Source of the DNA: Solobacterium sp.
Lineage (GTDB): Bacteria > Bacillota_I > Bacilli_A > Erysipelotrichales > Erysipelotrichaceae
Reading direction: 5' to 3'
Assembly (NCBI GenBank): GCA_017432325.1
Contig: JAFRJJ010000054.1
Coordinates: 1 to 64,000, forward strand
DNA: 64,000 bases
Under the pieces are notes generated by a model that was not told where the DNA came from, did not search any database, and saw only the letters and a program-made list of their open reading frames with translations. Each line of letters begins with the position of its first letter. Positions within the stretch are counted from its first letter, which is position 1. The position numbers were made by a program, and so were the translations under genes. This document shows positions 43,915 through 50,595 of this stretch, in pieces.

Positions 43915-44583
43915 ATGTTCGAGATATATGAAACCAAAACAAGGATCACGGATGATAATGACGCGCATGCGGCAGAATTGAGAAGTGAGCTTGAATCAAA
44001 AAATGTATTCTTCATCAACCTGATGGGATCACCCGGCGCAGGAAAGACCAGCACGCTTATACGCACGATCAATGCGCTGAAGGATGAATTCTCCATCGGT
44101 GTCATGGAGGCTGACATGGATTCGGATGTGGACGCGCAGACGATCTCACAGCTTGGTGTGAGGGTGATTCAGCTCCATACCGGAGGAAGCTGTCATATGG
44201 ACGCAGACATGACCAAAAGAGGCCTGGACAGGATGACTGTTGAAGGCCTGGATGTCGTATTCCTGGAGAATGTCGGCAACCTTGTATGCCCGGCGGAATT
44301 TGATGTCGGAGCGGCACTGAAGGTCATGATCCTGAGTGCTCCGGAAGGGGATGACAAACCCCTGAAGTACCCGCTGATGTTCAAGGTAAGCAACGTCATG
44401 CTTGAGAACAAGATCGAAACAAAGGATGTGTTTGACTACGATCCTGAAAAGGCTGAAGAACGGGCAAGGGCACTGAACCCGGATATCATTGCGTTCCGTG
44501 TTTCTGCCAAGACAGGTGAAGGCTTTGATGAATGGACATCATGGCTGAAGGAACAGATCAGAACATGGAGGAGTGAACGATGA
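43915..44583 (+). CDS. hypB: HypB family nickel-insertion GTPase, first copy
   Basis: A 222-residue SIMIBI-class GTPase that supplies nickel for hydrogenase (or urease) maturation. The P-loop is GSPGAGKT (38-45); MEADMDSDVDA, GSCHMDA with Cys and His (metal site), LENVGNLVCPAEFD with the second Cys, and SAPEGDDKPLKYP are family landmarks. The guanine-specificity motif, usually NKxD, reads NKIE (165-168), so nucleotide preference may be altered. GGAGG precedes the ATG. It overlaps the second copy by four bases (ATGA). Confidence 0.92.
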   Translation: MFEIYETKTRITDDNDAHAAELRSELESKNVFFINLMGSPGAGKTSTLIRTINALKDEFSIGVMEADMDSDVDAQTISQLGVRVIQLHTGGSCHMDADMTKRGLDRMTVEGLDVVFLENVGNLVCPAEFDVGAALKVMILSAPEGDDKPLKYPLMFKVSNVMLENKIETKDVFDYDPEKAEERARALNPDIIAFRVSAKTGEGFDEWTSWLKEQIRTWRSER

Positions 44584-45251
44584 AGGTAATAGAACTGCAT
44601 GCGTCCGTCACAAGGTCCAATGACATCGATGCCCAAAACCTGAGAAATGAACTGACGGAGAAGGGTGTGCTTCTCATCAATCTGATGAGCGCTGCCGGCT
44701 CCGGCAAGACAACACTGCTCTCAAGGATCATTACCGACCTGAAGGGCAAGGCAAAGATCGCCGTACTGGAAGCGGATATCGATTCTGCTGTGGACGCTGA
44801 GAGGATCGAAGCACTGGGTGCTGTGAGCGTACAGGTACATACCGACGGTATGTGCCATATGGATGCCGGCATGACGCGTACCGGTATTGAAGCGATGGAT
44901 CTGGAAGGTACGGATATCGCGTTCCTTGAGAACATCGGCAACCTGATCTGCCCGGCGGAATATGATACCGGAGCACATAAATGTGTCATGATCCTGTCTG
45001 TTCCTGAAGGGGATGACAAACCGCTCAAATACCCCCTGATGTTCAGGGAGAGCGATGCGCTGGTCGTTACGAAGATGGACGCGCTGCCTTACTTTGACTT
45101 CGATCTGGAACTGGTGAAGAAACATGTCAGCCATCTGAATCCGGATATGAAGATCTTCCCGGTATCCGCCAAAACAGGCGAAGGCATGGAAGCGCTGGAG
45201 CAGTGGCTGCTGGAACAGGCTGCTTCCCTGAGAGAACACGCACATGCATGA
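44580..45251 (+). CDS. hypB: HypB family nickel-insertion GTPase, second copy
   Basis: A 223-residue paralogue of the preceding gene. The P-loop reads SAAGSGKT (37-44) instead of GxxGxGKT, the metal site is MCHMDA plus NLICPAEYD, and the G4 motif reads TKMD. It thus differs from the first copy in both nucleotide-binding motifs; the pair may form a heterodimer with one regular site of each kind. It overlaps hypA by eight bases. Tandem hypB genes are unusual. No His-rich N-terminal nickel store is present in either copy. Confidence 0.92.
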   Translation: MKVIELHASVTRSNDIDAQNLRNELTEKGVLLINLMSAAGSGKTTLLSRIITDLKGKAKIAVLEADIDSAVDAERIEALGAVSVQVHTDGMCHMDAGMTRTGIEAMDLEGTDIAFLENIGNLICPAEYDTGAHKCVMILSVPEGDDKPLKYPLMFRESDALVVTKMDALPYFDFDLELVKKHVSHLNPDMKIFPVSAKTGEGMEALEQWLLEQAASLREHAHA

Positions 45252-45612
45252 GCTCGGGATCGTAACACACTGCGCAAAGACGATCGTTGACCTGGCGGAA
45301 GAAAACCATCTGAAGAAGATCGGCTCGGTCACGCTGGAGATCGGTGAGGTGTCCGGCATCATGACAGATTATTTTGTCGACTGCTGGAATTACTTCAAAG
45401 TCCGCTATCCGGTGATCGCGGAATCGGAGCTGAAGCTCAAGGTCATGCCTGCGGTCACATACTGTGAGGACTGCAAGTCCACATATGAGACGATCAAATA
45501 CGGCAGGATCTGCCCGAAATGCGGCAGTCCGAATACATACCTGCTGACCGGGAACGAGTGCATCATCTCGGAAGTGGAAGCGGAAGACGATGATGAAGCC
45601 GCAGAAAACTGA
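45244..45612 (+). CDS. hypA: HypA family nickel metallochaperone
   Basis: A 122-residue nickel chaperone. MHELGIV at the N-terminus supplies the nickel-binding His2; the zinc site is built from two CxxC pairs (YCEDCKS and ICPKCGS). The partner HypB genes overlap it directly upstream. The acidic C-terminus (EVEAEDDDEAAEN) is an extension of the usual protein. No hydrogenase or urease structural gene lies in the window, so its client is elsewhere. Confidence 0.94.
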   Translation: MHELGIVTHCAKTIVDLAEENHLKKIGSVTLEIGEVSGIMTDYFVDCWNYFKVRYPVIAESELKLKVMPAVTYCEDCKSTYETIKYGRICPKCGSPNTYLLTGNECIISEVEAEDDDEAAEN

Positions 45613-45829
45613 CCACTTCTGTCAGTGGATCATTACCCAGAGCGAAGACCCGGAAATGATCGGTCACATGTGTCAGGGCATCATGGACCAGAAGCGCTAT
45701 GAACAATTGCTTCGGGCTGAAGAAGAAGACCTGGTACAGATCCGTATCCACAGATATGAAGACCTGATGGAAGGCTGGATCGAAGACCTGAACCTGAATG
45801 AAACAGATACATATCTGAGGGAAGAGTGA
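45590..45829 (+). CDS. Small acidic protein of the hyp operon
   Basis: A 79-residue acidic protein, unrecognised. It overlaps hypA by 23 bases in another frame and is followed by the operon terminator. It has two Cys (residues 11 and 28) with neighbouring His and Met (HFCQW, GHMCQG), which may bind metal, and an Asp/Glu-rich C-terminal half. Given its place, a nickel-related role is possible. An alternative start is the next ATG, three bases later. Confidence 0.7.
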   Translation: MMKPQKTDHFCQWIITQSEDPEMIGHMCQGIMDQKRYEQLLRAEEEDLVQIRIHRYEDLMEGWIEDLNLNETDTYLREE

Positions 45830-45884: not shown

Positions 45885-45949
45885 GAATGATCGAAAACAG
45901 GACCGGACAGGTCTGAGGGTGATATACTGAGCAGGCAGGAGGGAGAACT

Positions 45950-48220
45950 ATGAGCGGGTATCCGGTCATCCATGAAAAACCGAACGATCCGTATACATAC
46001 GACCGGCTGGATATGCTGTGGGAGAAATATCCGCAGTATCACGAGAAGACGGTCTTTTCGTCATTGGATCAGCTCCTGGAAGGACATGAAAGCTTCCGGG
46101 AAGGGTTTGATGAACTCAGGGAAGAATACACAGTCAATGACTATGACAGGTTCCTGGTACAGCTTTCCCTCAATGACCTGCCTTACAGGCATGCGACAAA
46201 GGAACTGATCGAACAGGCACAGCTTCCGGAGAAAGAAAATCCGTATGTCACGGCATTCCTGGATCAGTTCGCTGAATTCGATACAGACCGTGATGCCTGT
46301 TTCCTGTTCCCGGAGAGCTATGTATCGCAGTTCTTCGTCATCACGGAAGTATGCAGGCGGGCAAGGGTGTTCCAACCGATACACAATCTGTTCCCGGACG
46401 AAGATAAGGTCCATTACCTGGCGGTGTTTGACAAGCAGAACATGGATGATGTCCTGCTGATGTTTCATCTACTTTATACCAATCCGTCGCAGGATCTCTT
46501 CGGCGGCTATTCACTGTACGATTACTCCCTGCTGTGGTACCAGACACATTTACAGGAGGACGTAACTGTTTTGAGGTCCCCGTACCTGCCGGACCGTATC
46601 GCCGTCTACCAGGGGGCTCTGCCGTACTGCTATAACCCGGTGAAGACCGTCTATGTACGCAGGAATATCCAGCATATCCTGGACAGCGGCTACTTCACAT
46701 CAGAGCTGGATCTCTTCCTGAACCTCACAAAACGGATCATGCCGCTGCTCCAGTGGTGGTACAGGGACATTGCCCTGTATGAGGAAAAAGACGGGTATCA
46801 GACAAACTGGCGGCTGGAACGGACAAAGATCCGTACGGATCTTACGGAAAAAGGGATCATCAAGCCGAAGTGGAAACATGAGCTGACACTGTTCAACGCT
46901 GTGAAGAAGCGCTATCCCGATACGCTGTATCAGTACCGGCCGGACTGGCTTGGACTGCAGAGCCTGGATATCTTTATTCCTTCTCTCAATACAGGCATCG
47001 AGTACCAGGGGATCCAGCATTATCATCCGATCGATTTCTTCGGCGGGGAGGAAGCTTTGATCGCCCGATGGGAACTGGACCGGCAGAAGAAAAAACTGTG
47101 CGACCAGAACCATGTGCGTCTGATCGAGTGGCCTTATGACCTGGAGCCGACAGACAGGAATATCCGCAGCACACTGGAAACGCACAGCCTGAAAGAAGAA
47201 CGTCAGAACGCTTTCCTTGCGTTAAAGGATTTTGATGAGTACATGGAGAAGTATGAGAGCTTCGCTTCCCTCCGTACAAGCGGACTCTTATTCCGCAAAG
47301 AAGCAGAGCTGATGGAGAGCGATGATACCTATACCAGACGCGAGAAAGAAAACCTGCGGGATAAGAAGAAACAGGAGATCCGCAGACGTCTTCATGAAGA
47401 GATCGAAACACTGCAGAAAGAAACGGAAACAGAGGGCGTCTGGATCCTGCCGGTGAAGGGCAGGAAGAAATTTGAATACCGCTACCGGTATCCCAACGGC
47501 AAGCGCGGGGATGTAGATCATTACCTGGCAGGACTATACGCGGAACCGAAACAGCTGAAAGAAAATGAATTTACTGTCAAGATCGACCGGAAGAATTATG
47601 AACTGATCGAACTGCTGATCATGGGACATATGAACCTGCTCACGCAGTATGATCCCGACCAGCCGGATGAGATGATCGAATTCCTGCTGCAGCACAACCG
47701 GATCGCCAGGATCGAATACCTCATGCATCAGGTGAACTATTACAAAGAGGAATACCGCAGTATTCGTTCCATTCCCGATCCGGGGCTGAAAAAACTTCTG
47801 ACAGGCTATCACCGCAGGCTGAATGACCGGGTCAGCCGGATCTACGAATATCTGATCGGGGAAGGGACGGTCAACGCAAAATGGAAGTCGGAACAGGCAG
47901 CTTATGGTATCGTGCTGAAGCACTACCCGGATGCCAGGTTCCAGTATTCACCGGAATTCCTGTTTCAGCAGAAACTGGATATCTTTATCCCTTCCGTCAA
48001 TACAGCCATTGAATACCAGGGAAAACAGCACTATGAACCCGTTGAATTCTTCGGAGGTACCGAAGGCCACAGACGGAATAAAGCGCGCGACAGACGCAAG
48101 TATATGCGCTGCCAGGCCAACGGCATCAAGGTGCTTTACTGGGACTATGACCAGCCGCTGACAGATGAGTATTTCACATCGGAGATCATGCCGGAAATCA
48201 ACGGTACAGACAAAGAATGA
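45950..48220 (+). CDS. Large protein with two PD-(D/E)XK-like nuclease domains
   Basis: A 756-residue protein of unknown function. A unique N-terminal region (1-300) is followed by a nuclease-like domain (about 305-396), a charged coiled-coil (about 446-490), a second unique part, and a second copy of the domain (about 643-733). Both copies share the pattern W-K-x-E (Glu311; Glu647/648), LDIFIPS (Asp340; Asp677), IEYQGxQHY (Glu351/Gln353; Glu688/Gln690), FFGG, a later Asp and Lys (DRQKKKLC; DRRKYMRC) and a final hydrophobic strand. This fits the restriction-endonuclease fold with E-x-Q in place of E-x-K. Its own extended -10 (TGATATACT) and AGGAGGGAG ribosome site precede it. It has no operon partner. 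Defence, repair or RNA cleavage are all possible. Confidence 0.75.
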   Translation: MSGYPVIHEKPNDPYTYDRLDMLWEKYPQYHEKTVFSSLDQLLEGHESFREGFDELREEYTVNDYDRFLVQLSLNDLPYRHATKELIEQAQLPEKENPYVTAFLDQFAEFDTDRDACFLFPESYVSQFFVITEVCRRARVFQPIHNLFPDEDKVHYLAVFDKQNMDDVLLMFHLLYTNPSQDLFGGYSLYDYSLLWYQTHLQEDVTVLRSPYLPDRIAVYQGALPYCYNPVKTVYVRRNIQHILDSGYFTSELDLFLNLTKRIMPLLQWWYRDIALYEEKDGYQTNWRLERTKIRTDLTEKGIIKPKWKHELTLFNAVKKRYPDTLYQYRPDWLGLQSLDIFIPSLNTGIEYQGIQHYHPIDFFGGEEALIARWELDRQKKKLCDQNHVRLIEWPYDLEPTDRNIRSTLETHSLKEERQNAFLALKDFDEYMEKYESFASLRTSGLLFRKEAELMESDDTYTRREKENLRDKKKQEIRRRLHEEIETLQKETETEGVWILPVKGRKKFEYRYRYPNGKRGDVDHYLAGLYAEPKQLKENEFTVKIDRKNYELIELLIMGHMNLLTQYDPDQPDEMIEFLLQHNRIARIEYLMHQVNYYKEEYRSIRSIPDPGLKKLLTGYHRRLNDRVSRIYEYLIGEGTVNAKWKSEQAAYGIVLKHYPDARFQYSPEFLFQQKLDIFIPSVNTAIEYQGKQHYEPVEFFGGTEGHRRNKARDRRKYMRCQANGIKVLYWDYDQPLTDEYFTSEIMPEINGTDKE

Positions 48221-49617: not shown

Positions 49618-50595
49618 TCAAAGATCGAATTCGTGCTTACCGACCAGTACTTTTCCTCTGGGGACTGCGGCTGCTTTATGGACCTCCAGCATACCCAGTG
49701 TATTGTATCCGCAGCTGTTCAGGAAGGCGATCATGACCTGGTTGTCAGGCTGGACCGTATTGGTCACTTCTTCCAGACCGGCTTCCGCGGCAGCCTGTTC
49801 CGCTTTCTTCATCAGCAGCGTTGCGATGCCTTTGCGCCGCATGTCTTTCCTGACATACAGTTCCTTCAGGCGGATCTTATCAACAGCTTCATCCAGGACG
49901 ATGTAGCCAAGAAACCTGCCGTGTTCGCTTGCCGCGAAGATCCGGCATCCGCTGTCCAGCAGTTCTTCCAGCTGGTCCTGTGCGGTGTTCGTATCGGACT
50001 GTACCGGCTGTCCGTTGAAGCGGTCCAGGAACTGGTTGTACTCATCCTTCAGGAAGATCAGGTTCATGTAATTGCGGTCTGTAACATCAATGATACGGAC
50101 ATTGAAGGAAGGCACCGGTGTCTTGACAGGTACAGGTTCTTCCTCGGGTTCTTCATAGTCGTCATCTTCTTCCTCGGACATGAAGGGCATGTCGTCATAG
50201 ATGATGCCATTTTCCTCACACCATACCATAGCTGTCGCGCGGTGCGCCTTTGTCTGGTATTCATACCAGTCCTGCAGAAGGTCAAAGCGTTCCGCAGCGG
50301 CACGGAACATCCTGAATGCGCCGCGTCCGTGGATGGCATTGGACATCCATTCTTTGGCGTCACCCTCCGGCTGCGCTTCGATAAAGCGTTCCATATTGCC
50401 ATAGTCGTCTACTTCCCTGCGGTCGGGAAGGGGGATCAGGTCTTCATCATATACCTGGGCAGGCATACCGGGATCGCTCCATCCGCTGTAGCTGCTGTAC
50501 GTTACGATCTCTTCTTTCGGGATATAGTAATACGGCGTAAATTCATCATTCAGCGACTCGATCGCTGCTACCACATCGTTCAGATTAACTTTCAT
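49618..50595 (-). CDS. UPF0158 domain fused to GNAT acetyltransferase
   Basis: A 325-residue two-domain protein. Residues 1-130 match the UPF0158 family (GRGAFRMFRAAAERFDLLQDWYEY is its hallmark region). An acidic linker (SEEEDDDYEEPEEE, about 139-155) leads to a GNAT N-acetyltransferase (about 165-325) with the acetyl-CoA loop RRKGIATLLM. The fusion suggests UPF0158 acts as substrate-binding or targeting part. GAGGTAG precedes the ATG. It is monocistronic. The substrate of the acetyltransferase is not known. Confidence 0.88.
   Translation of the reverse strand: MKVNLNDVVAAIESLNDEFTPYYYIPKEEIVTYSSYSGWSDPGMPAQVYDEDLIPLPDRREVDDYGNMERFIEAQPEGDAKEWMSNAIHGRGAFRMFRAAAERFDLLQDWYEYQTKAHRATAMVWCEENGIIYDDMPFMSEEEDDDYEEPEEEPVPVKTPVPSFNVRIIDVTDRNYMNLIFLKDEYNQFLDRFNGQPVQSDTNTAQDQLEELLDSGCRIFAASEHGRFLGYIVLDEAVDKIRLKELYVRKDMRRKGIATLLMKKAEQAAAEAGLEEVTNTVQPDNQVMIAFLNSCGYNTLGMLEVHKAAAVPRGKVLVGKHEFDL

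Follow-up and report, generated by a model that had tools for sequence, protein, structure and literature searches.

The window, the whole stretch of 64,000 nt that was analysed, holds a gene for a protein of 756 aa in which two nuclease-like modules are joined in one chain (Table 1). The ATG start of this open reading frame has an AGGAGGG upstream. The gene follows two hypB genes and hypA, and downstream of it lie genes for an aldo/keto reductase, a GNAT protein and YitT. The two tandem hypB-like GTPase genes before hypA (window 43915-45251) are ~50% identical to each other, and several congeners have the same arrangement. A small reading frame of 79 codons (window 45590-45829) overlaps the end of hypA; it has no Pfam match, was not found beside hypA in congeners, and ends 120 bp before the start of the fusion gene. 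Further downstream, at window 49618-50595, a UPF0158-like region is followed by a fused GNAT acetyltransferase domain. The preliminary description had given the fusion gene a promoter of its own, but a simple sigma-70 scan found no promoter-like site upstream, and this part is not supported; the gene may have its own promoter or be transcribed by read-through from the genes before it. Searches with the whole protein recovered no family from Pfam nor, with regard to known anti-phage defence proteins, from PADLOC-DB 2.0.0, even at an E-value of 10, and NCBIfam gave nothing useful. A match to Zur (E 0.09) was far short of the family cut-off and was discarded.

Table 1. Features of the fusion gene and its product (window coordinates)
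Feature	Position	Strand	Residues of note	Basis
Whole gene, fused dual-module protein, 756 aa	45950..48220	+		ORF call, full-length congener relatives
Ribosome-binding site aggagggagaact before the ATG	45936..45949	+		read in sequence
N domain (residues 1-300), mixed helix/strand, acidic	45950..46849	+		own model
Module A (residues 301-408), Vsr/EDxHD-like nuclease	46850..47173	+	E311, D340, E351, Q353, H357, D377, K380	
Middle region M (residues 411-628), first segment of separate M+B protein	47180..47833	+		
Module B (residues 629-756), Vsr/EDxHD-like nuclease	47834..48217	+	E648, D677, E688, Q690, H694, D714, K717	

That the same module occurs twice in the product, as had been proposed earlier, was confirmed by aligning the protein to itself. 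The repeat (about 305-400 and 643-735) gives 43% identity over 121 residues for 282-402 against 619-739 (E 2e-29) and therefore goes beyond chance. Both copies have all of the motifs W-K-x-E, LDIFIPS, IEYQG-x-QHY, FFGG and D-x-x-K, and D340/D677, E351/E688 and Q353/Q690 stand at the positions claimed for them. The copies lie apart, and where a coiled-coil had been suggested between them the model has a long helix (463-495), which belongs to the middle region together with a small alpha/beta part (507-558). Across the relatives, the residues E311/648, D340/677, E351/688, H357/694, D377/714 and K380/717 are unvarying in up to 40 out of 40 readable copies of module A and in 17 out of 17 of module B. 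When 19 diverse modules are compared, E311, D340, E351, G354, Q356, H357, G365, G366, D377 and K380 (module A numbering) are invariant. In the host genome the module is present in this gene alone, twice.

A model of the full protein was built by AlphaFold2 with 32 relatives. With a mean pLDDT of 85 and a pTM of 0.52 its domains are good, but their relative placement is unreliable, so that the mutual orientation of modules A and B is left unpredicted. Both modules consist of helix, strand, strand, strand, helix and strand in this order, and in the part of module B the pLDDT is mostly above 85. The best solved match of the full model in Foldseek was the mismatch endonuclease Vsr (1cw0, probability 1.00), with the homing endonuclease I-Bth0305I (3r3p) at 0.85. 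Module B (643-754) aligns to Vsr with Z 11.6 and an rmsd of 2.5 over 108 residues and to I-Bth0305I with Z 10.2 and an rmsd of 3.4 over 97 residues. These are followed in the fold list by mitoribosomal chains of Toxoplasma and Tetrahymena, of which 9i05 reaches Z 10.9, and by other PD-(D/E)XK nucleases. Module A appears there with a weak row only; its fold is assigned from module B, to which it is 46% identical and with which it shares the order of elements. LAGLIDADG chains that Foldseek listed for the full model were rejected, with an rmsd near 20 and probabilities of at most 0.07.

Searches of the PDB with the single sequence and with two profiles gave no real match, and none to 1vsr, 1cw0 or 3r3p, while in PHROGs families named homing endonuclease or intron-encoded nuclease were found with E-values from 9e-27 to 2e-8. 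The link to Vsr and I-Bth0305I is one of fold, and sequence links the modules only to phage homing endonucleases so annotated. The predicted fold bears out the PD-(D/E)XK-like assignment of the preliminary description and narrows it: as modelled, and with the E, D, H and D residues fitting, both modules belong to the Vsr/EDxHD branch of the PD-(D/E)XK superfamily. A nuclease-like fold and conserved acidic residues, on which the earlier proposal could have failed, were found for both. Residue by residue, the positions given in Table 1 would correspond to the letters of the EDxHD motif. A paper of 2025 has described domains of the EDxHD/Vsr type as forming a large group that had gone unrecognised, its members numbering in the thousands and mostly lacking annotation (PMC12350094), and the catalytic module is therefore already known. 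The novelty lies in the architecture.

The N domain, modelled alone, reaches a pLDDT of 88 and a pTM of 0.88, yet a fold search among 992 chains returned nothing at Z>=5 (best Z 4.3). Weak rows for an ACT/NikR/PII-like fold covered only about residues 113-187, where the model has a beta-alpha-beta-beta-alpha stretch, and no fold was assigned from them. That these 300 residues have no match, as stated earlier, is true of curated families and of solved folds. It is not true of sequences as such, as the domain has close relatives in other bacteria and distant ones in phages of C. difficile. With 29 K/R against 49 D/E it is acidic, and so is the N domain in 38 out of 38 bacterial relatives measured, at a net charge of -3 to -8 per 100 aa (on average -6.1 in fusions, -5.6 in pairs and -4.7 in solos), whereas five homing-type relatives from phages, four of which interrupt terminase genes, have arms at +4.1 to +8.6. 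This difference is the strongest point against a standard homing enzyme and for a role in sensing or partner binding. Such acidity is, however, no proof, since net charge alone is compatible with DNA binding.

Two separable units are fused in this protein, the N domain with module A (N+A) and the middle region with module B (M+B), each of which also exists alone. Among the sets searched, full-length fusions occur in one Erysipelotrichaceae genus only (genomes named Solobacterium), where the relatives share 62-82% identity. N+A without M+B is found in Lachnospiraceae and relatives; an M domain was not detected in 21 other genomes with N+A, in a search without a positive control among those genomes, whose completeness was not given. 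The opposite case, M+B without N+A, was seen in two genomes (G170 and G014). In three genomes (G013, G025 and L035) M+B and N+A are adjacent genes with touching or overlapping ends, in an order which is the reverse of that in the fusion. In the trees, all fusions form one clade (support 100/97) if two contig-end fragments labelled as solos, G280 and G268, are allowed for, and in the N+A tree the separate pairs form another one. The simplest reading of a single clade is a single fusion event, and the fusion was probably derived from such a two-gene pair. Because relatives keep the halves as separate genes, it looks like the natural fusion of a two-part nuclease. The idea of an intramolecular pair of nuclease sites, voiced in the preliminary description, is strengthened by those relatives in which the two halves are neighbouring genes. 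Pairing within one chain is not essential, however, since the single-module N+A protein thrives in Lachnospiraceae and relatives. As single, paired and fused forms exist in nature, both the need for a dimer in the EDxHD/Vsr group and its replacement by one chain are directly testable.

Carriers are a minority of the genus and the occurrence is patchy. Within 395 genomes of the same class, the module was found in 15, and two modules in one frame only in the protein of the window. One genome of this class (G541) has the module 11 times, in open frames that are mostly 290-520 residues long. The N+A part of the window protein is 68-72% identical to copies from Lachnospiraceae, compared to 59% for RpoB; against congeners it reaches 67-70% (nearest 88%), compared to 80-86% for RpoB. 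The identity between classes thus exceeds that of RpoB, which indicates that N+A has moved between bacterial classes. The loci mostly have differing neighbours, but one downstream gene is common to three fusion carriers, which hints at a degree of vertical inheritance at one location. The fusion gene is under purifying selection: compared with its nearest relative, it has a dN/dS of about 0.06 for the whole gene and of 0.02-0.12 by segment, values that are approximate because synonymous sites are near saturation. A scan of viral contigs with the full-length family gave no match.

The neighbourhoods of relatives were surveyed with respect to a defence-island context. By Pfam, the 137 neighbours of 28 family loci belong mostly to housekeeping families, and each PADLOC family turns up among them twice at most. 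Matches to mad1, mad3, mad8, a RecD-like protein and others (one or two each) were untraced to their loci and are not used as evidence here. A one-gene defence or repair system, as had been proposed, is not shown by this survey. Distant single-module relatives on plasmids, which have other N regions, are often near TIR, Abi, restriction, HEPN or toxin genes, and three of them are near SOS or translesion genes (imuA-imuB-dnaE2, SOS-associated peptidases, Y-family polymerase). These were picked off the match list with no control for comparison, and genes of the defence and toxin type abound on plasmids; therefore, their neighbourhoods are suggestive only.

DNA-cutting domains of the type found here are best known from phage homing enzymes and from a mismatch-repair enzyme, and the host is a rumen bacterium. 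With the fusion, the large unannotated EDxHD/Vsr group is seen to have members on cellular chromosomes, coupled to a domain that does not resemble the arms with which homing enzymes read DNA, and this suggests reuse of the catalytic module for another job. We favour a regulated two-module nuclease with an internal heterodimer, most plausibly acting in defence, to which, taken as a whole, we give not quite an even chance. One subunit would be formed by the acidic N domain and module A, the other by the helical middle region and module B, and the two modules would probably pair within the chain. Each of them may cut or nick one strand, leading to a double-strand cut or a paired nick without a second molecule. 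The N domain would serve as a sensing, partner-binding or inhibitory part more likely than as a DNA-reading arm, and such a part is easier to reconcile with a regulated effector nuclease than with site-specific homing. The gene itself is a horizontally moving accessory gene which is kept by purifying selection, and the effector would most plausibly be an anti-phage or anti-plasmid one, defence being our leading guess for its role. That all of this holds in one single-gene effector, whose acidic sensor-like domain has an unrecognised fold and governs a Vsr/EDxHD heterodimer of two-gene origin, made by an order-swapping fusion and carried as a mobile defence gene by gut and rumen bacteria, is possible but rather doubtful.

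A free-standing, selfish EDxHD homing endonuclease, cutting the cognate site that lacks the gene and spreading by repair, with the fusion in place of the dimer, is an unlikely competitor. The catalytic fold and the order of residues E...D...(E)...H...D are those of the EDxHD homing endonucleases (I-Bth0305I; EDxHD/Vsr outgroup, PMC12350094), and I-Bth0305I has been described as a dimer on a very long target (PMC3943268). Phage members similar in sequence sit inside split terminase genes, namely between pieces of the large subunit gene in Enterococcus phage 113, Staphylococcus phages SAP1 and BE24 and Bacillus phage BSP9, and the patchy occurrence, variable neighbours and transfer between classes are also what a homing gene might show. 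However, those enzymes have one catalytic domain per chain where the fusion has two, and a basic zinc-finger/CapR arm in place of the acidic N domain; an acidic N region in 38 of 38 relatives against +4 to +9 per 100 aa in the five phage arms does not fit. A DNA-targeting arm was not found in the protein, nor any zinc-finger or NUMOD-like Pfam family. No gene is interrupted by the locus, and Rfam, introns included, gave no match near it in a scan insensitive enough to miss also the introns of the phage control loci. Neither hypA nor the downstream gene of three other carriers revealed an empty site, with flanks too variable to decide, and the downstream gene shared by three fusion carriers suggests some vertical inheritance at that location. 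A precedent for one chain with two catalytic halves that replaces a dimer exists in the LAGLIDADG homing endonucleases (PMC3943268). Their fold is unrelated, and the halves of the fusion are two distinct proteins that elsewhere are order-swapped neighbours, not a simple tandem duplication.

A repair nuclease cutting at mismatches or damage would be in line with Vsr as the nearest solved fold (module B on 1cw0, Z 11.6) and with the three distant plasmid relatives next to imuA-imuB-dnaE2, SOS-associated peptidases or a Y-family polymerase. We regard it as quite improbable: patchy distribution and transfer across classes are not what one would see in a core repair gene, no repair partner recurs among the neighbours, and those of the fusion gene in the window are metabolic. 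Vsr is moreover a single-domain protein of about 155 residues, and profile searches give no sequence match to it. Equally improbable appears to us a catalytically altered or RNA-directed protein, whose modules would bind or cut RNA like the RAP-domain and FASTK relatives of Vsr. Mitoribosomal chains of the same fold do score on a par with Vsr (9i05), and in FASTKD4, a protein with a RAP domain, there is a Vsr-like cavity but apparently no nuclease action (PMC11879112). But the acidic residues and the histidine are all kept in both copies, which would not be expected for a non-catalytic scaffold, and the nearest sequence relatives are annotated as phage DNA nucleases.

Closest in architecture to the N+A half are uncharacterised proteins from phages and plasmids of C. 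difficile (WMU95128.1, WP_009894871.1; phrog_34504). Their identity to this half is 25-29% overall, with a distant N region and a module that is about 55% identical; unlike the fusion, they have a single module. Two C. difficile phage/plasmid proteins (L015:5650-6915 and L016:4383-5549) have very different N regions, yet their last 30 residues are nearly identical, as if alleles or domains had been swapped behind the nuclease module. In four alphaproteobacterial plasmids (L126, L127, L130 and L136) an unassigned gene of ~500 codons precedes the single-module gene. The products are divergent, with 20-25% identity to the first of them; a TIR identity was considered for this gene and dismissed, the matches being not significant (E 0.07-0.3). 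On a Sphingobium plasmid (L129:8661-15369), imuA and the genes for a Y-family polymerase and an error-prone DNA polymerase share their strand with the single-module relative, which comes directly behind them; this arrangement resembles a mutasome operon plus a nuclease.
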